39,542 nucleotides of DNA, from IMG/VR virus record IMGVR_UViG_3300005582_000031, positions 1-39,542 of that record; one strand, given 5' to 3'. Below, one piece after another: positions 9,901 to 39,542 of this stretch (its first letter is position 1; each line of letters opens with the position of its first letter). Source of the DNA: a virus. The position numbers were made by a program, and so were the translations under genes. A model generated the notes under the pieces. The model worked only from the letters and a program-made list of their open reading frames with translations, was not told where the DNA came from and searched no databases.

Positions 9901-10645
9901 GGTGCCGTTCAGTTCGGCCTTACGAGCTGGCCGTCGGATTGAAGACCCTACGGTACGAGTGGTGCCACCAAGTCCTGTTGAAGGCGGCCTTACTGGCATC
10001 CCAATGCGTTTATTTGAGGAGACCCTTAATGAGATACGCAATGGAATCCCAGGCTGGTCGGAATCATTACCACCACGGATCAACTGGATTACTGGCCAAC
10101 CATTGCTGTTGTCAGGGATTATGGGTGATGAGTTCCTGCCACCTGATCAACCATACCTATCCACCTTGGCTCAATTTGCGCCGTGGTCTCCGTTGCAGGT
10201 AGCACCTAAGGTCGATCCAGTTATGGCTGAAATGACCCGGTTATCTGGTAGGGGGGCTAATTTCCGTGGCCCTACCAATACTGATTTTGGCAAGGAGTTC
10301 AGGCTTACACCTCAGCAATTTGCTGACTACTCAATGGCTGCAGCTAATGTGCGCGATGAGTATGGCCGCAACATTTATATGGCGTTAGAGCAATTGATTA
10401 ACTCACCTTTCTACCAATCCTTGCCGGAAGGAGAGATCAGCACAACTGTACCTAGCAGGAGGGCTGCTGCTATTGATAGAGAGGTTTCTATTTTCAAGGC
10501 TCTTGGCAAAACAGTTTATCTAAATAGCCGCCCTGATCTGCAACAAGAGCTTGGGGTTATTGAAGGCCGCACCAAACAGGTGCAATATGAGCTTAAATAT
10601 GGGCAACCCGCTGGCCTGCCCCAGTTCACCGAGGCCCTCCGCTAA
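3953..10645 (+). CDS. Giant gp16-like internal virion protein with ART-like and HExxH domains
   Basis: At 2230 residues this is far larger than T7 gp16 (1318). An Ala/Pro/Lys-rich N-terminus (about 20-50) is followed by hydrophobic helices (about 165-250) and a DPKDVGLDGRLKNVLEG segment of the kind found in phage polyvalent proteins. Residues about 464-725 look like an ADP-ribosyltransferase: FFHGA (His467), GNGFYAT (Tyr494) and LHQVRIYWD (His709/Gln710), fitting an H-Y-[EDQ] order. Residues about 920-1060 hold YHEAFH (His1002, Glu1003, His1006), a zinc metallopeptidase HExxH motif. A 17-residue peptide is repeated at about 380-396 and 745-761, bracketing the ART-like part. In T7 gp16 is ejected into the cell, so these domains could act in the infected host; that function is inference. 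Confidence 0.8.
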   Translation: MPIQKIKDPQTGEIREEYVLPTAAPTAAPAKPTAKPAAPAKPAAGPTYGIEDIGGIIKDLTQGPSALLQATPGSVSAAAQELVKTGDLGKAFQKGQTTYIKDLEKPGRGAARTIYSAGRNIVQETSDLLTADIPAKLNIPGAKPTTAQRPDAPLFGFLPPLAKPKSSGVAEDLVTGLVQIAIPWAGVSRGVGFAGAALSKLPGAARVGQAATTTAQAVAASKVGQVAARIPGAVPVGKAIAENVATKAAATGAIIDFAAFDQHTGRLTDLIAQTTKGTPLENIAIDYLKSDPKDVGLDGRLKNVLEGALFGTALESTFRLFRAARAANRYKTDPTPVKAQQVQQANEKLETAIDQLRQTTEQQISPRPPVAAPEPVEPRTAVQPMGNVAAAAIEPPTAPRPQPTSVGPEPTAPEAAPVSLSERLAKEALTQGREPAPVETPKLIATPVPASATKEMPDTRGQGRFFHGAAAEFELQPGGEYGGSGMNIYGNGFYATEDLKIAGQYQKKNSKAEPVISMYGASDELNRAGVKTAEINGLLGRGRAPIPSPERLQEIASKLRQQAGESPRSNITERMLALADTLDNYKPVDVVGQRVIYEINEKKPIKFYDLDAPVDNKVLQELERIASRSDLVADSLGILDPGTYVSGVTPNVSLAQIMDEIRNTSSSLRVPFYEVQDIFEELIDTLKADGYGGFTHEGGRLAGGGKRLHQVRIYWDPAENINTQKVDLAEQLVDRVLAAVAAPETAVQPMGNVAAAAIEPPSPLAAEIKAATRKFGPDDGGRIEGAAQAYQKYFNQGKRQADEITEQQALDAVRAANVSFDPDRVKSLDMDKVRNDIFMGRFTPEVKAAQDAYRSIYDPSFGPLRSRGPELPELPKKPGLTREEIEARIEEIDKLIADIESDKLNMQVDEPRTRALVAELTKDIRTVAGDEVAIRFNNAFMETKGGDVAWGYKPGETMKVGGEYDPIKDIIEINNVELISADVQRPELLRLLVDNLEKTAYHEAFHRVQFNFLKPEEIKVFNQYLAEIKLDFGSMADREANALASRPDLLPIEKAAVAFQIYAWARKNNLDPRKALLGYTREELGKKGIVSALESAALAVMDTLYDFVERVGNAFNDRGFISIKSIFEDAYSGKLAKRGELGSVVDEAGKAVPSELDRLDLLQAQAMEYGETRRGQLGLPVLRSQAGPPPPPDETYTKRFVDQIIENKNKIEAGEITLDDLLVNNVQKFESPSGQTSYVPSPPVNAVQAYRAFSDIFTRPEATGIPVISLETIARETDAWLAKNNYNATAVIEGLQKLSGPLANYEDNLIKLRAGQLYVDDANLKAGIAANKFLNAAADSTADMNQLTADLLTAATYQKAANIALESVTRPIGQLLYSLQGPRPEIGSIEFTQGLPSVKNVGEELEEALDAQAQIPVEESIGKPISPELEEAIVTGEYGPKELEELDQLARSMAQSAVTPGFAKGFWKQVNESAALTTRGLIIYRAAQLLSSGLTLWSNTIGGGIRLLQLPVAQALGAGLSGSVPRASQSLMIYGQYVSNLQNAFRLGTESFKAGRGLYDLDETTMDFLDKMVKEDAQLPLDPNTVEGKGEWDLNTMPWVDIQDKSVWAMAQKKIWQGLNLSTRTQVSLDTFFKVLAGQSFEYVRNLQPGLDRAVGQGMDAGSKEAWDFAQEYAQAAVDRATRDVAINGRTILDAVMTSPQAQTAMRYATFTDDIWAQMETRTPTRAQELAAAQGLEGQAATEYINNYLNTTEEIPFFSRTFSMMPAVWQKLIEFSPLFSIIQPFNRTPGDIVKSVARMAPVAPLVDTFWRDINSADAFTRDRAKGDIAIGMAAVSLGTIAMTQGRVEFTGGGPQEPSAKQKWRESGKVPYSFRVRTGEDENGQPIFSPWVSMRAFEPLSSLFGGMADYQEVANKLPTEARERLGSAYTMDLLIAVAGGQLSKSYYQGFAELYEAFTGTGELDQGPNVRSPIERYISRIITSMVPFSSALRAGRRIEDPTVRVVPPSPVEGGLTGIPMRLFEETLNEIRNGIPGWSESLPPRINWITGQPLLLSGIMGDEFLPPDQPYLSTLAQFAPWSPLQVAPKVDPVMAEMTRLSGRGANFRGPTNTDFGKEFRLTPQQFADYSMAAANVRDEYGRNIYMALEQLINSPFYQSLPEGEISTTVPSRRAAAIDREVSIFKALGKTVYLNSRPDLQQELGVIEGRTKQVQYELKYGQPAGLPQFTEALR
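5090..5140 (+). repeat. 51-bp in-frame repeat, left copy (flanks ART-like segment)
   Basis: It encodes TAVQPMGNVAAAAIEPP inside the gp16-like gene. The partner at 6185-6235 encodes the same 17 residues; 7 of 51 bases differ and all seven are at third codon positions. Confidence 0.9.
6185..6235 (+). repeat. 51-bp in-frame repeat, right copy
   Basis: This is the second copy of the peptide-coding repeat at 5090-5140. The two copies bracket the ADP-ribosyltransferase-like segment of the gp16-like protein, as expected if that segment were a cassette gained by recombination. Confidence 0.9.
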
Positions 10646-11865: not shown

Positions 11866-13503
11866 ATGACCAAGACTCGTGATTTAGCTAACCTAGGCAG
11901 CGGTTTTTTGCAAACCGGAGCAGGCGCTGCCCGCCGTCCGGTTGACAGTAAGCTGAAGGATGTTGTGTCCGTTAAGGACTTTGGTGCGGTTGGGGATGGG
12001 GCGACGGATGATACGGCTGCTATTAACGCCGCATTAGCAGCTTCTAGTAACTTACTATTTCCACCAGGTACTTACGCAGTAACAACTATTACTTTTGACG
12101 GTGTTGGCAGACGACTTGCCTTTAATAGTGCCACAATTTTAGGCATTGCTACTGCATCAACACCGGCAGTGATTCAAATCACTGGCCGCGACATGCTTAT
12201 TACTGGGTTAAGTGTTAATGGCAACTTCAAAACAAACTACACTGCGGCCATTAAGTGGCACTCGCTAAGTGCTGGAACACCCGCTCAATTTATTCGCATC
12301 TATGATCTTCACATTAGTTACGCAAAGATTGGCATTTTGTTTGGTCAACTTTCTGGGACAGCCGTAATTGATGCGGCTCAGTCAGAAAATGATGTATTTG
12401 GATACACCACGCGAGGTGTTGAACAATGCGTGTATGCGAACCAAAGCAATGGTTTTATTACGTTTCACGGTGGAACCATTTGGTCTAGCAATAATGAGTG
12501 GGTAACTGGATATACCCAAACAAATGCTCGCGTAATTAACGGAATACAGGGGTCAGTAACATTTATTGGCTGTGAATTGCTTCTTACTCAATTTCAAAAT
12601 GGCCGTGGCATTGATGTGGCAGGGGGCGGTGTAGTTATACAAACATGCACTATTGAAATTGCTAATTCTTTCTTTTTGAATACAGGATCACTAAGTATAA
12701 ATTCCTCTGGCGGTTATTTTGCGCCAGGTGGCATTCCGTGTTTTGATTTAACTGCTGGGGATTTAAGCGTTAATAATTATGGTGCTTCGCGTAGTTCAAT
12801 CGCTGTGGGTGACAACGGATTTCTTATAAAAACTCCTGGCACGGGAGTGTATAGCGGGAAAATTCTTATTAAAAATTCAACATTTACAAACTGGAATAAA
12901 GATAAAATCTTTACCTACAATTCTAGTGATAACTTAGTCCTTGGCACCTACGTTAAGTTAAAAAATCTTAGGGTTGGAGCAACATCTACTGGATACACCG
13001 AAATAGAAGACACTACTCGCAACGACCTGGACAGGTTTAACTTGGACAATGGGGTTACTGCTTTGACAGATAACTGGTTTGCTTTTGTTGAGTATGGTGG
13101 TGGTACTACTTTGACGCTATCTGCCACTGTTCCATCTGCCGAATTTTCCAATTCAGTCCAACTTTATGCTACCGGTGAGGCCCATATTTGCACAACAGAT
13201 GCAGCATCGTCTATTACCAGAACAATTAAGCAAGGGACAAGTAACCTTTATTTTGTCTCTGCTCAAATTTACAGAGCTGCTGGAGCAGGTAGTACAAAAA
13301 TTGGTGTTAGAAATTTTTCAACGGCTGGCGCAAGCACAGGCCTAACTCGAATAGTAGCAAATGTTCCAACTACTGCTTGGACGACAGTTTCGGCAATTAT
13401 TAGTACAGCAGGCCCATTAGTAGCTTTTAACCTTAGCCAGGAGGTAGGAACTGTTTCTGTATGTAACGTATCAATGGTCAAAATAGGCGTACTCCGCCCC
13501 TAA
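11866..13503 (+). CDS. Beta-helix tailspike, pectate-lyase-like
   Basis: The 545-residue protein has VSVKDFGAVGDGATDDTAAI near residues 34-53, the N-terminal signature of pectate-lyase-superfamily right-handed beta-helix proteins common in phage tailspikes. The middle is rich in I/V/G/N beta-strand turns, and the last ~130 residues look like a separate beta domain. It probably binds or degrades host surface polysaccharide; no catalytic residues can be assigned by eye. It follows the tail fibre after 9 bases that include a modest Shine-Dalgarno (aggaag). A second tailspike with the same entry motif is encoded on the minus strand (19534-21519). Confidence 0.8.
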   Translation: MTKTRDLANLGSGFLQTGAGAARRPVDSKLKDVVSVKDFGAVGDGATDDTAAINAALAASSNLLFPPGTYAVTTITFDGVGRRLAFNSATILGIATASTPAVIQITGRDMLITGLSVNGNFKTNYTAAIKWHSLSAGTPAQFIRIYDLHISYAKIGILFGQLSGTAVIDAAQSENDVFGYTTRGVEQCVYANQSNGFITFHGGTIWSSNNEWVTGYTQTNARVINGIQGSVTFIGCELLLTQFQNGRGIDVAGGGVVIQTCTIEIANSFFLNTGSLSINSSGGYFAPGGIPCFDLTAGDLSVNNYGASRSSIAVGDNGFLIKTPGTGVYSGKILIKNSTFTNWNKDKIFTYNSSDNLVLGTYVKLKNLRVGATSTGYTEIEDTTRNDLDRFNLDNGVTALTDNWFAFVEYGGGTTLTLSATVPSAEFSNSVQLYATGEAHICTTDAASSITRTIKQGTSNLYFVSAQIYRAAGAGSTKIGVRNFSTAGASTGLTRIVANVPTTAWTTVSAIISTAGPLVAFNLSQEVGTVSVCNVSMVKIGVLRP

Positions 13504-19456: not shown

Positions 19457-19537
19457 TTAAGATGCTCGGCGACGAGGCATTTGCACTACCTTACCAAGAT
19501 CTGGCAGATCATGCCAAGTGCCAATAGAACGACTCAT
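19457..19537 (-). CDS. Chimeric terL-terS mini-ORF (26 aa)
   Basis: Reading leftward from ATG 19537 gives MSRSIGTWHDLPDLGKVVQM followed by PRRRAS and TAA. The first half matches the TerL N-terminus (MSKPLGTWHDLP); the second matches the TerS C-terminus (LPDLDKVVHMPRRRTA). The DNA shows the same: ctggcagatcatgccaagtg (18679-18698 and 19501-19520) and, for the other half, 19471-19503 against 21540-21573. The join is at the shared DLP codons. The ATG overlaps the tailspike stop as ATGA. It is a recombination fossil of an extra terS-terL boundary; it may or may not be translated. Confidence 0.7.
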   Translation of the reverse strand: MSRSIGTWHDLPDLGKVVQMPRRRAS

Positions 19538-21519
19538 GCTTTGCCTGAAATGTAATAGCTAATTCGGTGAGTCTTGTTATCCATGCCAGTGCCTGCTCCA
19601 TATTTAATCTTAAAGCTTGCAGTAGTAGGTGGAGTTGGGTCGGCATTAATCATTGCGACAGGGATGTGGTAACCCAAAGCATCTGCTGTTGCAGTGCCAG
19701 ACATTTGGACTTGTATTAGCTCATTGACAGAACTAAATAGCCCTGCTGGTAAGGCAACAGTTGCGATACGGTTGCCATCTGTTGTAACAACGCCTTGCGC
19801 CCGTAACTCAACATTGCCGTAATCGTCACATGTAACAAAATTGCTACCATCAACATATTTATTGACGTGCGTTGTACTAAAGCAATTAGTTGCCCCAGCA
19901 GCTCTAACCATAAACGGAACTGTGCTGGGGTTATCGTATCGCTTGGCAACAGATTGAAGTTCTTTAATTCCATCGCACCCAGCGTTTATGCTTAACACAC
20001 AATCTAAATCATTTTCAGGCGCTTCAAAAACACATTGCGAAATAGTGCTTTTTTGACAATTAACAAACTGCCAAATAGCAGGTTTTTTTAATCCAGTCCA
20101 TGGGGCTACACCCCCCATAGTAAAAAATACAGTAAACCCAGCACCTAAAAGCTGAACGCCAGAACACTTTTCAAAATAAGCTGCTGGTTCTACTGGGGTA
20201 AGAGCCGTCCCAGTAATGTTGCCTTTTTCTCCACCATTTAATAATTGAAGCCCACTGGTTATTTGCACATTAGAAATATGCCTTAGATCAAAAGCTCTTC
20301 CACTGCATTCATAACTACAGTTGTTAAATAAAAATTGCAACGCAACTTCAATTACTTGGCCTGCAGCTGCATTTACAATGTTAGAATAATGCTTAATGCC
20401 GTGGTGGCCCATGCCATACACATTATCAAATGTTATTCCTTCTAACCCATGTATTTCACCGGTAGGATTTTGATACTGCACTAAAGATCTTAGCTCTATA
20501 TTTTGAAAGAAATAACCAATGAACGAATCTTTAACAGTTACGCCAAAAGCCCCATCCATATTGCCTGCCGTGTTTGGCGCATTAGAAGACATTGTTTCAA
20601 GCAGTAACCCAATCCTGCTGCTATCTACTGTGTTTGGTGCGCCACCAGTAAAATCACAATTACTAATTACTACACTTGTTGGTGCGTATATGGTACATGC
20701 GTTATTCCATTTTTCAAGGTTTTGTTGATCAGCGCCAAAAGGGCCGACCTTAACGTTATTTAGATTTACAAGAGAAGTTGGGCCACTATCACCTCGAAGC
20801 GCAGAAATAATGGCAGAGCCAGCTAAATCAGTGTGGTAGCAAGCTATTCTAAGGCTATCTATCCAAAGATATTTGTAATAGCCAGGGCAAATTAATCCTG
20901 TTTGAGCGGGAACCGAAGTGCCAGCAGTTACAGTAAAAGTAAATGTTGTTGAGCTAGTAACAGTAATAGTTTTAGGGCCAAGAAAAGCCCCAGGTAGCCT
21001 AACAACTGGGCCAAAAGCAGAGCTGCCTACAGCACCAGAAGTAAACCCATGAGGGTAAAGGCTTGTTATTGTGGCCGTCGTTCCATTTACGGCAACAGTA
21101 ATAGGATTATACGAATGCTCAATACAATTTTTGCCTTCTGCAGCGTCAAATAAGAAAATGCTCGTATATTGAAAATCTCCTTTAATTATTAACCCGCCAA
21201 TAACACCAACCCGGAGTGGGGCAGTTATTAAAAAATACCCTTGGGGAACACGCAAAACTTGTGAATTTGTTTCGCAATAATTAATAGCAGCTTGGATTGC
21301 GGCAGTATCGTCAGTAACCCCGTTCCCAACTGCTCCAAAATCTTTAACGCTAATAAACCCATTAAAAGTATTAATCTTTTTACGGATATTGCCTAAAGAA
21401 ATAGTTTTGCTTTGGTTGGTAGCAGTAGCTTCAGCTGGCACGTAAGCCAGCAAGCGATCATTGTCGCTGGCATTTGTAGCAGTTAGCTGTGCTAGTTCAG
21501 ACGGTTTACGGTTAGCCAT
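19534..21519 (-). CDS. Second beta-helix tailspike, minus strand
   Basis: The 661-residue protein starts MANRKPSELAQLTATNASDN and has FISVKDFGAVGNGVTDDTAA at about 55-74, the pectate-lyase-superfamily entry motif that the plus-strand tailspike also carries. The remainder is beta-helix-like with repeated N/G turns. It probably binds or depolymerises a host surface glycan. The two tailspikes share only this short segment by eye, so they likely recognise different glycans. It lies between TerS and the chimeric mini-ORF, a place where T7 has spanin genes rather than tail genes. Confidence 0.8.
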   Translation of the reverse strand: MANRKPSELAQLTATNASDNDRLLAYVPAEATATNQSKTISLGNIRKKINTFNGFISVKDFGAVGNGVTDDTAAIQAAINYCETNSQVLRVPQGYFLITAPLRVGVIGGLIIKGDFQYTSIFLFDAAEGKNCIEHSYNPITVAVNGTTATITSLYPHGFTSGAVGSSAFGPVVRLPGAFLGPKTITVTSSTTFTFTVTAGTSVPAQTGLICPGYYKYLWIDSLRIACYHTDLAGSAIISALRGDSGPTSLVNLNNVKVGPFGADQQNLEKWNNACTIYAPTSVVISNCDFTGGAPNTVDSSRIGLLLETMSSNAPNTAGNMDGAFGVTVKDSFIGYFFQNIELRSLVQYQNPTGEIHGLEGITFDNVYGMGHHGIKHYSNIVNAAAGQVIEVALQFLFNNCSYECSGRAFDLRHISNVQITSGLQLLNGGEKGNITGTALTPVEPAAYFEKCSGVQLLGAGFTVFFTMGGVAPWTGLKKPAIWQFVNCQKSTISQCVFEAPENDLDCVLSINAGCDGIKELQSVAKRYDNPSTVPFMVRAAGATNCFSTTHVNKYVDGSNFVTCDDYGNVELRAQGVVTTDGNRIATVALPAGLFSSVNELIQVQMSGTATADALGYHIPVAMINADPTPPTTASFKIKYGAGTGMDNKTHRISYYISGKA

Positions 21520-23856: not shown

Positions 23857-24837
23857 ATGAACACCACCACAAGCCGGCCCACCACCAAGGGGGGTCGGAA
23901 GGTTTACGACGGGCCAACACCTGAGGAACAACTAGCCGCTGATCTGGTGGCGCTGATGGAATCATCAGAGCTGCCACCTTGGCGCCGTGAATGGCACGGG
24001 CACAGCGGCAATCATCGCAACCTCGTCACCGGTGCTGAATACAGCGGCAGCAACCCGCTTCTGCTGGAGCTCGGCAGCCTGAGCCGCGGCCACTCAATGC
24101 CGTTATGGCTTGGAGCTGGGCAGGGGAAACCACTCGGCTGGTGGCCTCGCAAGGGGACCAAAGCCTGCCGGATTATCCGGCCCCAGCTAAACAGCTACAC
24201 CGACCAGGTGGAGATGAACAACGTTCAGACCGGCCAGCCTGAGATTGTCGATCAATCGCGGGCATGGGTGAGCTTCAAAGCGGTAGCCGTATTTAATGCG
24301 GCAGATCTGCAAGGGGCCACCGAGGAAAGCCAGGCCGCCCTAGATGCAGCCATTGCGGCAGCACTAGGGCAGGGCGAGCCAGCGGCACCAGCTGCCAGGC
24401 TGGAGGTTGCCGAATCAGTGCTTGAATCCTGGGAGGTGATCACCACGTTTGAGGGGGGCCGGGCCTGCTATAGCCCGACACGCGATCAGATCACCATGCC
24501 ACCGGCTGACTCGTTCATTAACCGGGAAGCGTTCTGCGCGACCTGGGCCCACGAGCAGGCACACAGCACGGGCCACAGCTCAAGGCTGAGCCGTGATATG
24601 GGCGGTGATTCATCTTCCAAGGCTTACGCCCTAGAAGAACTGATCGCCGAGCTAGCAGCGGTGCTGATCTGTTACCGGTTGCAGGTAGGCAGTGAGTTCA
24701 CAAATCACGCCGCCTACCTGAAAGGCTGGGCCCAGATCCTAAAGGCTGAACCTAAGCAGCTGTTCAAGATCCTCTCAAAGGCCAGGGCTGCCGCTGATCT
24801 AATCACCGGCGCCACAGCTGGGGAGGTGGCAGCATGA
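23857..24837 (+). CDS. ArdC-like antirestriction protein
   Basis: The 326-residue protein has an N-terminal domain with LPPWRREWHG, NLVTGAEYSGSNPLLLELGS and PLGWWPRKGTKACRIIRPQ, as in the ssDNA-binding domain of ArdC/DUF1738-type proteins, and a C-terminal zincin-like domain with WAHEQAHSTGH (His232, Glu233, His236) and ALEELIAELAAVLIC supplying a further acidic ligand. ArdC proteins are best known from conjugative plasmids, where they protect incoming DNA from restriction. In an early gene block the likely role is defence against host restriction at infection. A longer Ala-rich linker (about 165-190) separates the domains. GC-rich codon use supports acquisition from elsewhere. Confidence 0.8.
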   Translation: MNTTTSRPTTKGGRKVYDGPTPEEQLAADLVALMESSELPPWRREWHGHSGNHRNLVTGAEYSGSNPLLLELGSLSRGHSMPLWLGAGQGKPLGWWPRKGTKACRIIRPQLNSYTDQVEMNNVQTGQPEIVDQSRAWVSFKAVAVFNAADLQGATEESQAALDAAIAAALGQGEPAAPAARLEVAESVLESWEVITTFEGGRACYSPTRDQITMPPADSFINREAFCATWAHEQAHSTGHSSRLSRDMGGDSSSKAYALEELIAELAAVLICYRLQVGSEFTNHAAYLKGWAQILKAEPKQLFKILSKARAAADLITGATAGEVAA

Positions 24838-25712: not shown

Positions 25713-25864
25713 ACCAACTGATTGAAGATCAACGCCAGTTATTAGTAGCTAATTATCACGACGCAGTTGTCTTATCCCTGCGGATGCAGGAGCAAACAGA
25801 CGCAGCATGGGATCAGCTACAAAAATTCAACACCACCCACCCAAAGGAGAAAGCCAATGACTAG
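25709..25864 (+). CDS. Small helical hypothetical protein (51 aa)
   Basis: The ORF MNQLIEDQRQLLVANYHDAV continues VLSLRMQEQTDAAWDQLQKF and ends KEKAND. It is one long amphipathic helix by appearance. It is coupled to the previous gene by ATGA and overlaps the next start by 8 bases. The position in a tight operon supports it. The family is not known. Confidence 0.5.
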   Translation: MNQLIEDQRQLLVANYHDAVVLSLRMQEQTDAAWDQLQKFNTTHPKEKAND

Positions 25865-26207
25865 CACCATTGCCAAGGCATACCAGCCACCAGCTGAGGA
25901 TGTGTACCCAGCCACCACCATGCCAGTCAAGACACAAGCCAACGCTACAGGTGAAGTGCTGTGGTTTGCTGAAGGCTATGGTTGGTATGTAGGTGGCTTT
26001 GCTTCACCTCACATGCCTAACACCACACACTGGACTTATATCCCTGACCGTCCTGCTTGTGAGAACAGCAATGCACTACGGGATTCTGAGTTTGACCGGT
26101 GGATGCTGACCTTTAGCAGAGAAACTAGAGAAGCATTAAGGGATACCTTAAGCACTGCATTCCATGCAGGTTGGCGGTTAGGTCGGCAACCTAATGTCAA
26201 CCATTGA
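25857..26207 (+). CDS. Hypothetical protein before RNA polymerase (116 aa)
   Basis: ATG 25857 follows the Shine-Dalgarno AAAGGAGAAAG, which decides this start over an upstream in-frame one at 25767. The protein has a Pro-rich N-terminus, an aromatic middle (VLWFAEGYGWYVGGFASPHM) and a helical basic C-terminus (FSRETREALRDTLSTAFHAG). No family recognised. It overlaps the RNA polymerase gene by 14 bases and is probably in the same transcript. Confidence 0.65.
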   Translation: MTSTIAKAYQPPAEDVYPATTMPVKTQANATGEVLWFAEGYGWYVGGFASPHMPNTTHWTYIPDRPACENSNALRDSEFDRWMLTFSRETREALRDTLSTAFHAGWRLGRQPNVNH

Positions 26208-28572
26208 GGAGCAGCTTGCACTAGAGCGTGAGATGTTTCAGCTGGGTGCTGATCGTCATGCCTTTGTTAATAACAGACGGCAAGAACGTGGCATGGAATC
26301 CCTTAGCCAATACGGCGAAGCTTTAACTGAGCTGGGTATTAAACCTTTAGTGCAAGTAATTAGAGACACACGTCGTCGAATGAAAGAAGGCAAGGCTGGC
26401 CCTGGCTATGCTCACATGCAACCCCTCCTACTATTAGCGCCACATAAGACAGCAGCTACGGCTATGCGCTGTGTCGTGGATAGTATCCAAAAGGGTAACA
26501 AGTTAGTAGAGCTGGGTCGATTAGTAGGTGAACGCTTATGGATTGAAACCATGCTGGCCCGTGCTAGTAAGTGGGAGATGATTACCCACGAAAAGATACG
26601 CAGTACCTATAAACAAAAGATGCAGGATATAAGGCGCATGAAGGCAACAGAAGAATGGACAACAAGAGAGAAGGTAACGACAGGTGTGTGGTTAGTTATG
26701 CACATCGCTGAATTAACAGGGATGATCATACTAAAAACTGCACGTGAAGGTGGCCGCAGCCCTTATGTTGTATCACCTGCACCTAAGTGCATAGAGTTTA
26801 TCAATGATGTAATAACAGCAGGTAAGTTGTTGTGTCCCTTTGCTTTACCTATGGTTGTGCCACCACGGCCATGGGATAAAGACCTGGAAGGTGGCTACTT
26901 AACTAGCATACCTAACAGTAAGCTAACTAAAGATGCTACCCCACTAGGTATAACAGGGAATGAGCCATTCATTAAGGCTGCTAACTTACAACAAGCAGTG
27001 CCATGGCGTGTAAACAAATGGGTGTTGGAGCAGTTGCAATTTGCATGGGATCAAAGCTTATCTATTGGCAGGCTATTACCCCGTGAAGGTTACCCTATTC
27101 CACCCTACCCTAAGCATTTACCTGATGACCATGAAGATGTAAGGCAATGGAAGTTTAACGCTCGCATACTGCACGAGAAGAACGACAAGTCTATTAACCG
27201 ACGTGTCGCTACAGCTAAGCAGTTATGGATAGCTAACCGCATGGCTAGCTACGACAGGATATACTTCCCAACTCAGATAGATTTTAGGGGTAGGTATTAC
27301 TATCGCCCGCCATTCCTTAACCCACAGGCTAATGATATAGGCAGGGCGCTTCTGCTATTTGCGAATGGCAAACCCATAGTCACAGCAGAGGATGCCAGCT
27401 GGCTATACATACATGGTGCCAACATGTATGGCCATAGCAAACTAACTTGGCAGGCCAGGACAGATTGGGTTAAACAACACCACGACCAGATTATGCTGGC
27501 AGGTGCTGACCCATGGCGTAACGCTGTGTTCTGGACTGGTGCTGCTGATCCATGGCAGTTCCTTTCCTTTTGTCGTACCTATCAGCAGTTCAAACAACAT
27601 GGCTATGGCTATGTGTGTTACCTGCCAGTAGTGCTCGACTGTACCTGCTCTGGCATACAACATTACTCAGCACTGCTGAGGTGTGAGGAGATGGGCAAGC
27701 TAGTTAATCTAGCTAGCAGCGAGAAGCCACAAGATATATATAGCGTTGTATTAAACGAGGTGTTGTCGATACTACGGGTTGATGCTGCTGCTGGCAGCCA
27801 ACACGCTCAATCATGGTTGCAATTACAACCTGATCGCAGCTTGCTAAAGCCTGTAGTAATGACAGTCCCGTACTCAGCTGGTCGCACATCAGTTCTTGAT
27901 CACGTCCACCGCTGGGCCTTTGACCGCACAGTTGAACTTTATGGTATGAACAATTGGAAATTTAAGGCTGGTGCTATGGCAGCAGTTCATTACCTAACCA
28001 CAATCCTATGCCAACAAACCTATATGTTTATAGGCCCAGCTAAAGAAGCAATGCAATGGTTCAAACGGTTAGGCAATTTAGCTGGCAAACATCAGATCAA
28101 ACTTAAGTGGACTAACCCAGCCGGGCTACCTATTACACAGGGTTACCTTGATATGAAAGGCACAGTAATCACCTTGCGATACCTAACTAATGTATCGCTT
28201 AGGTTTACTGCTGGCTTAGAAGAAAGAGGTCTAGACCCAAGGCGTATGGGCACAGGGCTCAGCCCTAATGTTATCCACTCATTAGATGCCAGTCACATGG
28301 CATTCACCACGCTCGATGCTTCTGCAAAGGGCATCACTAACCTTGGAGGTATCCATGATTGCTTTGCCACGACCCCCGCCGAGATGACAGTGTTGCGTGA
28401 TTGTGTACGCAATACATTCGCTGATCTTTATAGCCGTGATGTACTCACGGATATAGTTAATCAGTTAATCAGCCAGCTGCCATTTGATGTAGCTGCTGAC
28501 GCTATGCCTAGCCCTGAGCTAGGTACATTAAACCCAAACACCGTTCGCCATTCCACCTACTTCATCACATGA
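26194..28572 (+). CDS. T7-type single-subunit RNA polymerase
   Basis: The 792-residue protein has VVLDCTCSGIQHYSALLR (Asp482, equivalent to T7 Asp537), LLKPVVMTVPYSAGR (Lys552 and Tyr560, like T7 Lys631 and Tyr639, same 8-residue spacing), GLSPNVIHSLDASHMAF and IHDCFATTP (Asp722, like T7 Asp812). All catalytic residues are present. It is about 90 residues shorter than T7 RNA polymerase, mostly ahead of the first catalytic Asp. It should transcribe the middle and late genes from phage promoters. The stop overlaps the ssDNA-binding protein gene as ATGA. Confidence 0.95.
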   Translation: MSTIEEQLALEREMFQLGADRHAFVNNRRQERGMESLSQYGEALTELGIKPLVQVIRDTRRRMKEGKAGPGYAHMQPLLLLAPHKTAATAMRCVVDSIQKGNKLVELGRLVGERLWIETMLARASKWEMITHEKIRSTYKQKMQDIRRMKATEEWTTREKVTTGVWLVMHIAELTGMIILKTAREGGRSPYVVSPAPKCIEFINDVITAGKLLCPFALPMVVPPRPWDKDLEGGYLTSIPNSKLTKDATPLGITGNEPFIKAANLQQAVPWRVNKWVLEQLQFAWDQSLSIGRLLPREGYPIPPYPKHLPDDHEDVRQWKFNARILHEKNDKSINRRVATAKQLWIANRMASYDRIYFPTQIDFRGRYYYRPPFLNPQANDIGRALLLFANGKPIVTAEDASWLYIHGANMYGHSKLTWQARTDWVKQHHDQIMLAGADPWRNAVFWTGAADPWQFLSFCRTYQQFKQHGYGYVCYLPVVLDCTCSGIQHYSALLRCEEMGKLVNLASSEKPQDIYSVVLNEVLSILRVDAAAGSQHAQSWLQLQPDRSLLKPVVMTVPYSAGRTSVLDHVHRWAFDRTVELYGMNNWKFKAGAMAAVHYLTTILCQQTYMFIGPAKEAMQWFKRLGNLAGKHQIKLKWTNPAGLPITQGYLDMKGTVITLRYLTNVSLRFTAGLEERGLDPRRMGTGLSPNVIHSLDASHMAFTTLDASAKGITNLGGIHDCFATTPAEMTVLRDCVRNTFADLYSRDVLTDIVNQLISQLPFDVAADAMPSPELGTLNPNTVRHSTYFIT

Positions 28573-29222
28573 GCAACTTCATCTTGATCAAAGGAGAAAA
28601 ATTCACCACTCCTGTTGCTAAGTTCCAGTATCCAAAGCTAGTTGAACCTGACACTAAGTTCCACCCAGAAGGAATGTATGAGGTGATAGCTGTAATGGAT
28701 GCGTCTGATCCAGAAGCAATCCGTTTAGCTGAAGACCTAGATAAATTCCTGGAGCAACACAAGGCTTCATTAAAAGCACAAGCACCCGCCACTAAGTTCA
28801 AGCTTACCGATTTGCCTTGGCGCTTTGAAGAAATTGATGGGATGCCTGCGCTTATTCTGAAAGCTAAGAGCAAGGCTAGTGGTGTTGATCGTGACGGTAA
28901 GAGTTGGGCACGTAAGCCTGCGTTGTTTGATGCCAAAGGCAACCCAGTCACTGATCGTTATGCAGTAGCTGGCTTATGGTCTGGCACTACAGGCAAGGTA
29001 GCGTTCCAAGCATCACCGTTTTATACGCCTGTGATAGGAGCAGGTGTGACCCTACGGTTGCAAGCTGTTCAGATCATTAACCTAGTTGAGTCCGGTGGTA
29101 GCGGTAGCGCCCATGGCTTTGGCCAAGAGAAAGGTTGGACGCCAAAAGGCGCCACGACAACAGAGCCAGCTGCCGTCCCCTGGGATGCAGAACCCATCGC
29201 TGCAGACGAAGCCGACTTCTAG
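28569..29222 (+). CDS. ssDNA-binding protein, gp2.5-like
   Basis: The 217-residue protein has the layout of T7 gp2.5: an OB-fold-type core (about 1-170) and a Gly/Ser-rich linker leading to an acidic tail that ends IAADEADF, an aromatic last residue as in gp2.5. In T7 that tail contacts DNA polymerase and primase-helicase. Here the tail persists although no phage DNA polymerase gene is present, so it may contact the primase-helicase or a host enzyme (inference). It lies between RNA polymerase and endonuclease I, as in T7 order. Confidence 0.85.
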   Translation: MSNFILIKGEKFTTPVAKFQYPKLVEPDTKFHPEGMYEVIAVMDASDPEAIRLAEDLDKFLEQHKASLKAQAPATKFKLTDLPWRFEEIDGMPALILKAKSKASGVDRDGKSWARKPALFDAKGNPVTDRYAVAGLWSGTTGKVAFQASPFYTPVIGAGVTLRLQAVQIINLVESGGSGSAHGFGQEKGWTPKGATTTEPAAVPWDAEPIAADEADF

Positions 29223-29595
29223 GTTTCGTAGCAAGTACGAGGCAGCAGTCGCTGCCTCCCTTGTTAAACGTGGTCTTGACTGCAAGTACGAAGCTCGAAG
29301 CTTTGGTTACATAATCAGAGCTACCTACACCCCTGACTTCTTCTTGCCTAATGGGGTAGTAGTAGAAACCAAAGGGCACTTCAGCTCTGATGATCGGCGC
29401 AAGATGCTGGCTGTTAAAAGCCAGTACCCATTACTGGATATTCGCTTGTGTTTCCAGAATGCACAAGTGAAATTATCTAAGGCACCTAAGTCCCTTGCTT
29501 ATTGGCAATGGGCTGAACGCCATGGGTTTCTCTGGTGTCAAGGCCACATCCCCACCACCTGGTTTACCGATGCCATCCAAACTCCTGCGGCATGA
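29113..29595 (+). CDS. Endonuclease I, T7 gp3-like Holliday junction resolvase
   Basis: The 160-residue version starts at ATG 29113, overlapping the ssDNA-binding gene by 110 bases; ATG 29185 (MQNPSLQTKP) is an alternative that gives an N-terminus nearer T7 gp3 in length. Conserved motifs are FRSKYEAAVA (Glu of the active site), TYTPDFFLPNG (Asp) and VVVETKGHFSSDDRRK (Glu and Lys), matching T7 endonuclease I SGLED, YTPDF and VETKG. It resolves branched DNA and degrades host DNA in T7. The end overlaps the primase-helicase start. Confidence 0.85.
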   Translation: MALAKRKVGRQKAPRQQSQLPSPGMQNPSLQTKPTSRFRSKYEAAVAASLVKRGLDCKYEARSFGYIIRATYTPDFFLPNGVVVETKGHFSSDDRRKMLAVKSQYPLLDIRLCFQNAQVKLSKAPKSLAYWQWAERHGFLWCQGHIPTTWFTDAIQTPAA

Positions 29596-31180
29596 CCCGT
29601 GTCCTGCTTGTGGCAGCAAAAACAACCTTGCTGTCTATGACGACGGCCATAGCCATTGCTTTGGTTGTGGCCACCAAATCCAACCAGCAAAAGATAAGCC
29701 AGTGCTACCACCTGAACCATTACCGCCACCCGCTAAACCTTTAATAAGGTTCAGCGCTATTCAAGGTTTAGCAAAGAGAGGTATCACCGAAGCAACAGCA
29801 AAACATTTTGGTTATGGCGTTGCTCAACACCATGGCCAATTAGTACAGGTAGCTGAGTACCGCGACCAGCAGGGTAACGTATGCGCCCAACACATACGTG
29901 ATCGAGACAAACGGTTTCAATGGTTAGGTGACACCAGCGGTATCCAGCTATGGGGTCAACACCTATGGCGGCAAGGTATTGGTGGTGGCAGCCAACTGTT
30001 TGTAGTTATTACTGAAGGTGAGATCGACGCTATGTCGGTTAGCCAAGTGCAAGGCAATAAGTATCCAGTTGTTTCATTACCGAATGGGGCACAGTCGGCC
30101 AAGAAATATCTGGCTGCTAACCAGCAATGGCTTAGCCAGTTCAACCGAATCGTTCTTTGTTTTGACAGTGATGAACCTGGCACTAAGGCAGCAACAGATG
30201 CACTAACAATCTTGCCCCTGGGTAAGGCTGCTATCTGTCACCTGCCACGCAAGGACGCCAACGAAATGCTGGTCAATGGGGAGGGTGACCTACTCAGGGA
30301 CTTGTTATGGAAGGCAACTCCATCCCGCCCTGATGGAATTGTTAATGCGTCTGAGATGTGGGAGGAGCTGATCAAACCACAAGCTGGTGCTGCTTGTGCA
30401 TACCCATGGCCAGACCTAAACCGTATGACCCGTGGCTTTAGAAAAGGTGAGATGGTTACGCTCTGTGCTGGCAGTGGCATCGGCAAGTCTTCTATATGTA
30501 GAGAGTGGGCACACCACTTCCTTTGTAACGGCATGAAGGTGGGCTACATAGCACTAGAGGAATCAATCAAGCGCACCATGCAGGGGCTGGTTGGTATTGA
30601 ACTAAACAAACCTATCCACCTTGACCCAACCCTTGCTACCAAGGAGGAGATGAGAGATAGCTTTGATAATTTATTTGGCAGTGGTCGTTGCTATTTGTAT
30701 GACCATTTCGGCAGCATGGATCCTGAGCATTTAATTAATAAGATCCGATACCTAGCTGATGGTGAAGGAGCAGACGTCGTAATCCTCGATCACTTAACCA
30801 TTGTGGTTAGTGGCTTGACTGAGTTGGATGAACGCCGTGCCATTGATGTGACCTGCACTCGGTTACGACAGGTGGTAGAGCAGAGCGGTATTGGCATTGT
30901 GCTGGTGTCGCACCTCAAACGACCGGAAGGTCGCGGCCATGAAGAGGGCCAGCAAACTAGCCTTGGCCACTTACGTGGTAGCCATGCCATAGCGCAGCTC
31001 AGCGATATGGTGATCGGCGCTGAACGTAACCAGCAAGGGGAGATGAGTGAACGCAATGAACTGCAGTTGCGTGTACTAAAGAACCGCTTTAGTGGTGAGA
31101 CTGGTACATGTGACAAGCTGTTGTATGACTCGGTTACTGGCAGGTTGACTGTCCCTATGTCCCGTTACTTTGGAATGTAA
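29570..31180 (+). CDS. Primase-helicase, gp4-like
   Basis: From ATG 29570 the protein has 536 residues. Zinc motif CPACG...CFGCG uses Cys11, Cys14, Cys30 and Cys33, the same spacing as T7 gp4. TOPRIM motifs VITEGEIDAMS and LCFDSDEPG follow, then Walker A GSGIGKSS (about 303) and VVILDHLTIV as Walker B of the RecA-like ring helicase. T7 gp4 ends in an acidic tail that binds the phage DNA polymerase; this protein ends TGRLTVPMSRYFGM without an acidic tail, which fits the lack of a gene 5. It should unwind DNA and make primers for a polymerase supplied by the host. Confidence 0.92.
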   Translation: MPSKLLRHDPCPACGSKNNLAVYDDGHSHCFGCGHQIQPAKDKPVLPPEPLPPPAKPLIRFSAIQGLAKRGITEATAKHFGYGVAQHHGQLVQVAEYRDQQGNVCAQHIRDRDKRFQWLGDTSGIQLWGQHLWRQGIGGGSQLFVVITEGEIDAMSVSQVQGNKYPVVSLPNGAQSAKKYLAANQQWLSQFNRIVLCFDSDEPGTKAATDALTILPLGKAAICHLPRKDANEMLVNGEGDLLRDLLWKATPSRPDGIVNASEMWEELIKPQAGAACAYPWPDLNRMTRGFRKGEMVTLCAGSGIGKSSICREWAHHFLCNGMKVGYIALEESIKRTMQGLVGIELNKPIHLDPTLATKEEMRDSFDNLFGSGRCYLYDHFGSMDPEHLINKIRYLADGEGADVVILDHLTIVVSGLTELDERRAIDVTCTRLRQVVEQSGIGIVLVSHLKRPEGRGHEEGQQTSLGHLRGSHAIAQLSDMVIGAERNQQGEMSERNELQLRVLKNRFSGETGTCDKLLYDSVTGRLTVPMSRYFGM

Positions 31181-31182
31181 TT

Positions 31183-31431
31183 ATGCGATGCACTAATTGC
31201 GGCGATAGCAAAAACGTCCGCGCTTCTCACACTCGTACTGACCCAATGGATAACACCATTATCAGACGACGTGTGTGTACTACATGCGGCCATCGTTGGT
31301 ACACAGCAGAGGTGCCGATCCCACCTGAAGCTGTTGGCCATGGCTTTAATGAAAGCCGGACTCAATCCACCTTTACTCTTAAAGGATCTATCACCTACAC
31401 CACCACGGGGAACCATGACTCTATTGATTGA
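31183..31431 (+). CDS. NrdR-like zinc-ribbon protein in the DNA polymerase slot
   Basis: The 82-residue protein starts MRCTNCGDSKNVRASHTRTD and has IIRRRVCTTCGHRWYTAEV. The two CxxC pairs and the (I)RRRxCxxCxxRW-T motif match the N-terminal zinc ribbon of NrdR, but the ATP-cone domain of NrdR is absent. NrdR represses ribonucleotide reductase genes; a free zinc ribbon could bind DNA or nucleotides. It occupies the whole gap between primase-helicase and exonuclease where T7-like phages place DNA polymerase. The last 40 residues are Thr/Ser-rich and without motif. Confidence 0.7.
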   Translation: MRCTNCGDSKNVRASHTRTDPMDNTIIRRRVCTTCGHRWYTAEVPIPPEAVGHGFNESRTQSTFTLKGSITYTTTGNHDSID

Positions 31432-32164
31432 TGCTGATTGGCTGCTCTATGCAGCATGTTGCGCTTGCGAAAATGAGATCCGTTGGGATGAATGGATTCA
31501 TACCTTGCATTCAGAACCAGTTGATGTGCAGGATTTTATTGGCAGCAAGGTAAATGGTTGGAAAAAATTAACGGATGATGATCAAATAGTTATGTGCCTA
31601 TCGGACTATCCATCCTTTAGGTCTGAGCTGTATCAAGATTACAAAGCTAACCGCGTTGGTAAGCGCAAGCCGCTGGTTCTTAAGGCCACAAGAGAATGGA
31701 TACATACGCGCTACACAACCAGAACACTGCCGGGCCTAGAGGGTGACGATGTGCTGGGGTTGCTAATGACTGGTGGCCAGTACCCAGACCCCATCATGGT
31801 GGCCATTGATAAAGATATGCGCACTGTGCCTGGTCGGTTGTTAGTAGATGACGAGCTGGTCGTTACTACTGAGCAGGAGGCCAACATGAACTGGATGTTG
31901 CAAACCCTGACTGGTGATGTCAGTGATAACTACCCTGGCATTAAAGGTTGTGGCCCTAAGACAGCAGCCAAGGTATTAGCTGATGCCAAAAATTTACCTG
32001 AGATGTGGGCGCTGGTAGTCGCGGCCTACAAGAAGGCTGGCCTTGGCTTTGCTGATGCTTTGCTTAATGCCAGGCTGGCTCGCATCCTACGTGATGGTGA
32101 CTACAACGAGGACACTAACGCTGTGCGACTATGGGAACCGAATCAAATGATTAGCCATGGATGA
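31415..32164 (+). CDS. 5'-3' exonuclease, gp6-like
   Basis: The 249-residue protein begins MTLLIDADWLLYAACCACEN and has acidic metal-site motifs LEGDDVLGLL and IDKDMRTVPG and the helix-hairpin-helix-like LTGDVSDNYPGIKGCGPKTA, all typical of FEN/T7 gp6-type nucleases. YKANRVGKRKP is the family's basic motif. It removes RNA primers and degrades DNA to nucleotides in T7. ATG 31415 is preceded by a leader with CACCACCACGGGGAACC that resembles the early-gene leaders; an earlier start near 31271 would overlap more of the zinc-ribbon gene. Confidence 0.88.
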   Translation: MTLLIDADWLLYAACCACENEIRWDEWIHTLHSEPVDVQDFIGSKVNGWKKLTDDDQIVMCLSDYPSFRSELYQDYKANRVGKRKPLVLKATREWIHTRYTTRTLPGLEGDDVLGLLMTGGQYPDPIMVAIDKDMRTVPGRLLVDDELVVTTEQEANMNWMLQTLTGDVSDNYPGIKGCGPKTAAKVLADAKNLPEMWALVVAAYKKAGLGFADALLNARLARILRDGDYNEDTNAVRLWEPNQMISHG

Positions 32165-32342
32165 TCAGTTGTGGCCACCGATTGATGATGCGTTGATTGT
32201 CATGCTGAACCGTTTGATACCAGAACGGTGCCCTAGTCTTGATGATGATGAGCGTAAGATATGGTTTAACGTTGGCCAACGGCAGGTTGTGCGAATGTTG
32301 CAGGCCATCTACATTGAGCAACAAGACAACCTTGCGGATTAA
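32157..32342 (+). CDS. Conserved-type hypothetical protein (61 aa)
   Basis: MDDQLWPPIDDALIVMLNRL continues IPERCPSLDDDERKIWFNVG and ends acidic. The pattern of short acidic helices, with ERCP then a WFNVGQRQVVRML helix, is often seen between exonuclease and portal genes of cyanopodoviruses, to my recollection. Function unknown. It overlaps the exonuclease end by 8 bases. Confidence 0.6.
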   Translation: MDDQLWPPIDDALIVMLNRLIPERCPSLDDDERKIWFNVGQRQVVRMLQAIYIEQQDNLAD

Positions 32343-37142: not shown

Positions 37143-39542
37143 ATGCCACTGATCAGCAGCTCTATTCCTAACCTGATCAATGGTGTTAGCCAGCAACCAG
37201 CTGCACTACGGCTGGCATCACAAGCTGAGACTGTAGTCAACTGTTTACCAAGTCCAGTAGAAGGGTTAAAGAAACGACCACCGTGTTATCACATTGCCAA
37301 GCTATTTGCTGGTAGTGCAGGAGCTGGTCGTCCTTTTACCCATATCGTTGATCGTGACGGCACAATTAAATACTTGGTGATGATCCAAGATGCCACGCTA
37401 AAAGTATTTGGCTTAGATGGTTCTGTTAAAACTGTTACTGCCGCAGGTGGTTTTAGTTACCTTGATATAACAGGTGAGCCCAGTCAGGTATTCCGTGTTG
37501 CTTCTGTCGCTGACTATACCTTCATTGTAAATCGTGAAAAGACAGTAGCAATGTCAGCATCAACATCCCCTGATTGGGGCACCAAAAGCATGGTGTTTAT
37601 TAAGACTGCTGACTATGCAACAACATATAGCATTACAGTTAATAGCGTAACCGTAAGTGACACTACCGCTAACAGCGGCGGCAATGTACCTAGCAACGTA
37701 ACTATTGCCACTAACTTAGCTGCCAGCTTAAATGCCAACGGTACTTTTAATGCTTCATTTGTAGCAACTCAAACTGATTACATTGTGCGCATTACTAAGA
37801 ACGACGGTGGTGCATATACCTTGTCGTCCAAAGATACACGCAATGGCGCTATGACCATAGCAATTAAAGGCACTGTTGACACCTTGACAGACTTGCCAAC
37901 TATTGCTGAGCATGGCTTCACGGTAAAGATTTTAGGCAGTAAAGCTACGGGCCTTGATGATTACTACGTTAAGTTTGAAACTAATACTGGCAGTGGGTTT
38001 GGCCATGGCATCTGGAGAGAGACAGTAGCACCTGGCATCCCTTACCTATTTGATGCAGCAACTATGCCGCATGTATTGATTCGTAATTCCAATGACACCT
38101 TTACTTTCCAACCATTTACCTGGGCTGGCCGGGTAGCAGGGGATACCTTAACCGCTCCTGATCCTAGTTTTATTGGCAGCAAGATCCAGAATTTACAGCT
38201 ATTCAGGAACCGCTTAGCATTTTTGTCTGATGAAAATGTGATCCTATCTGCTGCTGATTCCTACGACCGCTTCTTCCCCGAGACCGTGCAGACTATTGTC
38301 GATAGTGATCCTATTGATATTGCGACTGGCGGCCAAGAGATTAACTTCTTAGTCAGCAGCCTCGCCTTTGCTAACTCTCTGTTGCTATTCAGCAGGCATA
38401 GCCAGTTCCGCCTAGATACAGGCAACGTAGCTGCAGCTTTATCCCCAAAAACAGCCAGCATTGCTGCTCTTACTACCTTCGAGATGGTGGATACGGTAGA
38501 CCCTGTTGCTGTGGGTCGTACTATTTTCTTTGCTGTACCCAAGGGTGACTTCAGTGGTGTAAGAGAGTTCTTCCTGCCTGACAGCAGCGGCCCTGTTCCT
38601 ATTTCAGAGGAAATAACATCGTCTGTGCCTCGGTTTGTACCGGGTTCTTTGACATCAATGACGGCAACAGTGTCAGAAGAAGGGCTGGTGTTGCTCAGCA
38701 AGAACGAACCAAAGCGTATTTATTTGTATAAATTCTTTTTTCAAGACGACACCAAGCTGCAATCAGCCTGGTCGTATTGGGAAGTAGAAGGAGCTAAAAG
38801 CATTATTGGCGTTGATATTCTTGATAGCGACCTATACTTAACTATTGAATATGCTGATGGTGTTTACCTAGAACGTGTTGCTTTGCGCCCTGAGACAGTA
38901 GATCCTGGCGCAACTATTGAAATCTTGGTAGACCGCAAGATAAATGAAACTGCTTGCAGTGTAGTTGTAAGTGATGCAGCTGGTATTGGTGTTCAATCTA
39001 CAGTTACCTTGCCCTACCCAATAGCTAGTGGCAGCCAAATGGCATTAGTTGGGCGCTCGGATTCGTCCTTCTTTATTCTTGAAAATGGCGACTTCTTAAT
39101 ACTAGAAGATGGCGGCAACCTATTGTTTTCTACAGGTGCAGCACTTGGTTCTGTGCGATACCCAGTAAGTCAGACAAGTAATACTATTACTATTCGTGGG
39201 GATGTAAGTGCTGCTTTCTTTTATGTAGGTGAAATATACAATATGCTGTACGAGTTCAGTACTCAATACATTAAAGAGCAACCGCCTGGTGGTGGTATGG
39301 CTATAGCTGCTGGCCCCAAGCTGCAGCTACGCACCTGGACTATGGTCTTTGATGAGACTTCAGCCTTTGAAATTAAAATCACACCACGGGGTAGAGACAC
39401 TAATACTTACCCCTATAACGCTATTACCCCTGGTGATGCTTCCTTGCTGGATTCGCTTGGCGTTAAAACCAATAGGTTCCGAGTGCCGGTAATGACTGAA
39501 AATCTAAATGCTGTTATCCAACTGACAAGCAGCAGCCCACTA
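37143..39542 (+). CDS. Tail tubular protein B (gp12-like), cut by the window end
   Basis: The ORF is open from ATG 37143 to the last base. It starts MPLISSSIPNLINGVSQQPA, the hallmark N-terminus of T7 gp12-type nozzle proteins (NGVSQQP-x-xRL). Other recognisable segments are IQNLQLFRNRLAFLSDENVI, SLLLFSRHSQFRLD and DLYLTIEYADGVYLERVAL. Joined through the 8-base overlap to the 3' part at 1-71, the complete protein has 820 residues; T7 gp12 has 794. It forms the tail nozzle. Because the gene runs off the edge, it is easy to miss in ORF lists. Confidence 0.93.
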   Translation, partial: MPLISSSIPNLINGVSQQPAALRLASQAETVVNCLPSPVEGLKKRPPCYHIAKLFAGSAGAGRPFTHIVDRDGTIKYLVMIQDATLKVFGLDGSVKTVTAAGGFSYLDITGEPSQVFRVASVADYTFIVNREKTVAMSASTSPDWGTKSMVFIKTADYATTYSITVNSVTVSDTTANSGGNVPSNVTIATNLAASLNANGTFNASFVATQTDYIVRITKNDGGAYTLSSKDTRNGAMTIAIKGTVDTLTDLPTIAEHGFTVKILGSKATGLDDYYVKFETNTGSGFGHGIWRETVAPGIPYLFDAATMPHVLIRNSNDTFTFQPFTWAGRVAGDTLTAPDPSFIGSKIQNLQLFRNRLAFLSDENVILSAADSYDRFFPETVQTIVDSDPIDIATGGQEINFLVSSLAFANSLLLFSRHSQFRLDTGNVAAALSPKTASIAALTTFEMVDTVDPVAVGRTIFFAVPKGDFSGVREFFLPDSSGPVPISEEITSSVPRFVPGSLTSMTATVSEEGLVLLSKNEPKRIYLYKFFFQDDTKLQSAWSYWEVEGAKSIIGVDILDSDLYLTIEYADGVYLERVALRPETVDPGATIEILVDRKINETACSVVVSDAAGIGVQSTVTLPYPIASGSQMALVGRSDSSFFILENGDFLILEDGGNLLFSTGAALGSVRYPVSQTSNTITIRGDVSAAFFYVGEIYNMLYEFSTQYIKEQPPGGGMAIAAGPKLQLRTWTMVFDETSAFEIKITPRGRDTNTYPYNAITPGDASLLDSLGVKTNRFRVPVMTENLNAVIQLTSSSPL
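39535..39542. repeat. Contig-end overlap, right copy (gcccacta)
   Basis: Identical to bases 1-8; see the left copy. Confidence 0.85.

Follow-up and report, generated by a model that had tools for sequence, protein, structure and literature searches.

A T7-like phage genome without a DNA polymerase gene, and the large, mostly uncultured lineage to which it belongs

T7-like phages without a DNA polymerase gene have already been described for Prochlorococcus, namely the MPP-C phages P-SCSP1a-u and P-SCSP2 (PMC9860041). The P-SCSP1/2 isolates grow on Prochlorococcus MED4 (PMC9860041), and hence the MPP-C gene set suffices with the host. How a T7-like phage replicates without its own polymerase is posed as an open question by the discoverers of MPP-C, and the options listed by Cai and colleagues are Pol I, Pol III and a hidden polymerase (PMC9860041). 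In T7 itself gp4 attaches to basic patches of gp5 through its acidic tail and the Phe at the end of that tail (PMC12593628, PMC12230644). The MPP-A and MPP-B cyanopodoviruses (Syn5, P-SSP7) and the pelagi- and roseophages HTVC011P and CRP-125 have the Autographiviridae gene order seen here, but in each of them a family-A polymerase lies between helicase and exonuclease.

We analysed the virus record IMGVR_UViG_3300005582_000031, whose whole length of 39,542 bases (39,534 unique after one end copy is trimmed) is called the window below. A sequence-only reading of this DNA had described a replication module in T7 order, i.e. RNA polymerase (RNAP), single-stranded DNA-binding protein (SSB), endonuclease I, primase-helicase and exonuclease, with no DNA polymerase gene, and had pointed to a report of polymerase-less cyanopodoviruses. 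The report is real and concerns the MPP-C phages (PMC9860041). The gene order is borne out by Pfam and PHROG matches and continues past the exonuclease with a 61-aa ORF and then the portal gene, as listed here.

25767..26207, + strand: unassigned protein immediately upstream of the RNAP, shared by the window clade and P-SCSP1u but absent from P-SCSP2
26194..28572, + strand: T7-type single-subunit RNA polymerase (PF00940 E 1.3e-80, phrog_414, motif alignment)
28569..29222, + strand: gp2.5-type single-stranded DNA-binding protein (phrog_112 E 3.4e-29, PF21265)
~29086..29595, + strand: endonuclease I, a Holliday junction resolvase (PF05367 E 1.2e-32)
29576..31180, + strand: primase-helicase (phrog_239 E 1.3e-179)
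31183..31431, + strand: NrdR-type zinc ribbon without ATP cone, 82 aa (PF22811 E 5.8e-8)
31415..32164, + strand: 5'-3' exonuclease, T7 gp6 type (PF02739/PF01367, phrog_107)
32157..32342, + strand: 61-aa protein (phrog_4970), kept throughout the lineage and also found in P-RSP2, CRP-125 and Pasto
39535-39542 = 1-8, no strand: 8-nt direct repeat GCCCACTA, an overlap left from circular assembly

The interval 31180-31415, between primase-helicase and exonuclease, is occupied by the zinc-ribbon ORF, which the ATG start of the exonuclease overlaps. The primase-helicase is intact in its zinc site, Toprim, Walker A/B and the His465 and Arg522 equivalents, and we would expect unwinding and priming since the catalytic residues of both activities are in place. 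Its C-terminus (...VPMSRYFGM) has no acidic Phe-ending tail. The SSB does have an acidic C-terminal tail with Phe as the last residue (...IAADEADF). By motif alignment the RNAP retains its catalytic residues, the Tyr that selects rNTPs (T7 Y639) and the His at H784, and has Pro at T7 R632. The true start of endonuclease I is probably downstream of the TTG of its ORF.

Compared with the T7 replisome (gp4, gp5, gp2.5, thioredoxin), the window encodes homologues of the helicase-primase, SSB, exonuclease, endonuclease I and RNAP, arranged in the same order, but has neither the gp5 polymerase nor the acidic Phe-ending tail of gp4. Its own single-subunit RNAP and its T7-like order are those of the Autographiviridae, while the usual family-A polymerase between helicase and exonuclease is absent; P-SCSP1/2 are filed in that family without it too. 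The window and MPP-C share the T7-like order, with the exonuclease directly after the helicase in MPP-C, as well as the absence of DNA polymerase and of RNR or other auxiliary metabolic genes tested (psbA, hli, mazG, rnr, talC, thyX). The identity between P-SCSP1u and the window is 71% for TerL, 65% for MCP, 63% for the portal and 57% for the helicase. The window differs from MPP-C in size (39.5 kb vs 37.3-37.9 kb), in GC content (48% vs 34-39%) and in having an NrdR-type zinc ribbon in the vacant slot, and it shares its ArdC with P-SCSP2 only. The core phenomenon is known for Prochlorococcus phages, whose lineage gains a new, uncultured member in the window. Three additions were not found in the literature searched: the loss of the tail across the clade, the phylogeny with a single loss event, and the likelihood of hosts among betaproteobacteria.

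The record looks like the complete genome of a T7-like phage of bacteria, since its ends overlap by 8 nt and the join is collinear with the relatives L027 and L016 once one copy of GCCCACTA is removed. The contig had been said to close on itself in frame; the closure stands, but the in-frame read-through is spurious and arises only with both GCCCACTA copies kept. The gp12 ORF is to be read after trimming one copy, and its C-terminus then differs from that of the raw join.

We scanned IMG/VR with the helicases of the window, P-SCSP1u, P-SCSP2 and Syn5 and with a mixed alignment, and scored the contigs for polymerase by tblastn. The polymerase is absent in all 173 testable contigs of the lineage, i.e. 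the window plus 69/69, 24/24 and 79/79 in the window, P-SCSP1u and P-SCSP2 groups, isolates included. It is present in all testable contigs outside the lineage (73/73 Syn5-like, 73/73 distant relatives and the annotated reference isolates). The DNA_pol_A profile matches 8/8 polymerase-plus records and 0/24 polymerase-minus ones. When genome contigs were scanned with the helicase, the matches were polymerase-plus alphaproteobacterial contigs only. Surveys that use DNA polymerase as a marker gene overlook the entire lineage.

We built quick trees with SH-aLRT, using a helicase alignment with the tail removed. In the helicase tree the polymerase-minus phages all fall on one side of a single branch (SH-aLRT 100), and the RNAP tree too has them as one clade (SH-aLRT 94); this clade takes in P-SCSP1/P-SCSP2 and excludes the polymerase-plus phages, so the suspected kinship to a polymerase-less lineage is upheld by both proteins. 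P-SCSP1u lies inside the window clade in the RNAP tree and joins P-SCSP2 in the helicase tree. The suggestion that the polymerase-plus cyanophages are not the sister group of the polymerase-minus clade was dropped, as a tree grouping them scored better than the free quick search. Judged by these sequences, the window belongs to a large, mostly uncultured lineage sharing the polymerase loss, of which only oceanic Prochlorococcus viruses had been known. The simplest reading would be that the gap is inherited from one polymerase loss, and the data suggest a single, old and successful event.

The missing acidic docking tail of the primase-helicase, which the sequence-only reading had pointed out for the window, turned out to be a property of the whole polymerase-minus clade. 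A terminal Phe was found in 83 of the 88 polymerase-plus helicases (73/73 in Syn5-like phages) vs 1 of the 172 polymerase-minus ones, and this sole exception has no acidic residues in its tail. After the TGRL motif the polymerase-minus C-terminus is 8-11 residues shorter than the Syn5-like one. The acidic Phe-ending tail of the SSB is kept in all polymerase-minus contigs scored and in nearly all others. The sequence mark of polymerase loss is a docking helicase tail gone with the SSB tail retained, and the correlation between tail loss and polymerase loss counts as a single observation because both are one event on the tree. The helicase tails of the window clade are net basic and those of P-SCSP1 and P-SCSP2 are not, and hence a basic tail is not a shared rule of the lineage. 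Helicase K122H as a fixed mark of the lineage was ruled out, since it occurs in 8 polymerase-plus phages too.

Could the gap be an artefact, or could a phage enzyme fill it? A misassembly, or a deletion in one individual genome, has to be considered for a single metagenomic contig judged from assembled sequence. We give this next to no probability, as the helicase, zinc-ribbon and exonuclease order is the same in L002, L003 and L027 from other IMG data sets (helicases 93-98% identical), the gene is likewise absent from complete-sized relatives of 38.7-43.1 kb, several with 62-127-bp end repeats, and the overlap and collinearity at the ends, the 173 contigs and the isolated, sequenced MPP-C phages all speak against it; the earlier judgement that a missing segment is unlikely holds. 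A phage-encoded polymerase too divergent for profiles could be sought in the gp16-like (2230 aa) and gp15-like (906 aa) proteins, which are largely without family assignment, but is very improbable. A six-frame HMM search over the whole record gave no match to DNA_pol_A and, at E up to 1, none to the family B and C profiles DNA_pol_B, DNA_pol_B_2 and DNA_pol3_alpha, which agrees with the first reading of the window as free of a DNA polymerase gene. The DNA_pol_A profile found no match in nine related complete-sized genomes either. All large non-capsid proteins, including the gp15-like and gp16-like ones, were scanned against Pfam and/or PHROGs and no polymerase was seen, and PolA/PolB motifs were not found in these two. 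The gp16-like protein matches an internal virion protein family (phrog_6651) and ranges from 1786 to 2827 aa among relatives, and the conserved unassigned ORFs are all <=146 aa.

The phage RNAP, the only polymerase that the phage encodes, might itself have been turned into a DNA polymerase, as T7 RNAP Y639F partly can. The position of T7 R632 is Pro, Ala, Ser, Asn or Gly in the RNAPs of the window clade and P-SCSP1, and in one contig Y639 is replaced by Phe. However, all other polymerase-minus RNAPs keep the Y639 equivalent, and H784 and the catalytic Asp/Lys/His positions are likewise retained, so that with the dNTP-excluding residues kept we hold the RNAP to be an extremely improbable substitute. 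The survey argues against both the RNAP and a hidden polymerase in this role. The recruited enzyme, if from the host, could be DNA polymerase I, which is of the same family (A) as the lost T7 gp5. In plant organelles a T7-type primase-helicase (Twinkle) works with Pol I-type, i.e. non-phage, enzymes via a basic and not an acidic tail (PMC12230644), and the window-clade helicase tails are net basic. Twinkle is not a phage protein, and the analogy is for mechanism only. Pol I is a low-processivity repair enzyme and the tails of P-SCSP1 and P-SCSP2 are not basic, and we think Pol I unlikely, if a serious candidate. Pol III is favoured since the phage brings its own helicase, primase and SSB to the fork yet encodes no processivity factor; that the host enzyme is the replicative Pol III holoenzyme is likelier than Pol I, with about an even chance of being right.

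Recruitment of a host polymerase had been proposed in the sequence-only reading and is our leading hypothesis. We regard synthesis by some host polymerase as very probable; the contact with it we infer. With rather less assurance, we favour the fuller account in which the window is a T7-like phage of one lineage that lost its family-A polymerase, with the phage helicase-primase and SSB at the forks and a recruited host polymerase, probably Pol III, doing the synthesis. The phage RNAP would start replication, the phage helicase-primase would unwind and prime, and the host DNA polymerase, bound through surfaces that do not involve the lost helicase tail, would make the DNA from nucleotides supplied by the host. 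A host polymerase with host nucleotides would fit the missing polymerase, the tail loss, the intact helicase and primase, the RNAP residues and the absence of RNR. At tblastn sensitivity, no candidate recruiter protein turned up that all polymerase-minus lineages share and the polymerase-plus ones lack. Among the helicase, SSB, exonuclease and RNAP the only clamp-binding-like motif is QLRVL in the helicase, a probable core strand that counts for nothing.

The zinc ribbon sits where the polymerase-plus relatives have their DNA polymerase and matches the N-terminal DNA-binding ribbon of NrdR, the ATP cone being absent. Of 70 window-clade contigs, 36 have its strict motif in the slot, and no P-SCSP1-type contig has it; 12 P-SCSP2-type contigs carry it at another place in the genome, and it is missing from all 182 loci of the polymerase-plus groups. 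It was rejected as a general polymerase replacement, as it is found in the polymerase slot only in the window clade. We speculate that it interferes with host NrdR control of RNR, a role possible in a clade without RNR (RNR genes in 0/190 loci of the polymerase-minus groups). A ThyX-like gene with the RHRSFSFQEFSTRYA motif lies in the helicase-exonuclease slot in L007, L008, L041, L043, L045, L077 and L079.

The host question was approached through marker genes and attachment sites. A tblastn search of the window for psbA, hli, talC, mazG, rnr and thyX gave no hit for any of them (thyX is present in some window-clade relatives), and the window has no integrase and no recognisable tRNA fragment. 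In five window-clade contigs (L031, L032, L050, L077, L079) an integrase precedes a tRNA-Met(CAT) 3' half whose CCA is encoded; L040 and L054 also have an integrase beside tRNA 3' halves, the types seen being tRNA-Met and tRNA-Leu. Members with an integrase are possibly temperate or formerly temperate, judging from these genes. The att comparisons were confined to the replicons of a plasmid collection and genome sets on the proteobacterial side. For the L050-type tRNA-Met the best match in the plasmid collection is Burkholderia cenocepacia (97.9% over 47 nt), with Cupriavidus next. An exact copy of this sequence lies in genome G379, whose 16S is betaproteobacterial (~90% to Burkholderia, Cupriavidus and Neisseria) and which has a second copy of the tRNA-Met 3' half 8.8 kb away, marking an inserted element. 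With two variable positions allowed, 15 of 300 genomes of this order have the site exactly, compared with 2 of 398 phylum-wide when one mismatch is tolerated. For the tRNA-Leu att of L054, 300 genomes from the same order gave nothing at up to 2 mismatches, and a helicase search of 399 order-mates of a betaproteobacterium gave no close prophage. tRNAs evolve slowly, which limits what such matches say about a host.

The att sites are a strong hint, short of proof, of betaproteobacterial hosts, and they bear on relatives in the window clade instead of on the window. The window had been taken for a member or relative of a cyanopodovirus lineage; its kinship to MPP-C is confirmed, but its standing as a cyanopodovirus is not, given that it has no cyanophage marker gene and that its relatives have tRNA-Met att sites of betaproteobacterial type. 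With such sites in several window-clade relatives, a cyanobacterial host is not to be assumed, and a part of the polymerase-less lineage probably infects bacteria quite different from Prochlorococcus. We tentatively propose, at slightly worse than even chances, that a single old T7-like lineage without polymerase has hosts among both cyanobacteria and Burkholderiales-type betaproteobacteria, and uses the host polymerase via a rebuilt replisome interface (marked by the loss of the helicase tail and the retention of that of the SSB) that works across bacterial phyla. If the lineage does span both host groups, polymerase loss in phages is no cyanophage speciality. Some of the betaproteobacteria suggested as hosts can be cultured and genetically modified much more readily than Prochlorococcus.

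Three further features of the window were noted. An ArdC-type antirestriction protein with a zincin domain (23857-24837) is also found in P-SCSP2-type phages and in one other window-clade contig only. The giant gp16-like ejection protein (3953-10645) shows a weak DUF3990 match (residues 486-525) and, around residue 1010, an HExxH-type motif. Two tailspikes with a pectate-lyase fold (11866-13503 and 19534-21519) are encoded on opposite strands and vary between relatives.
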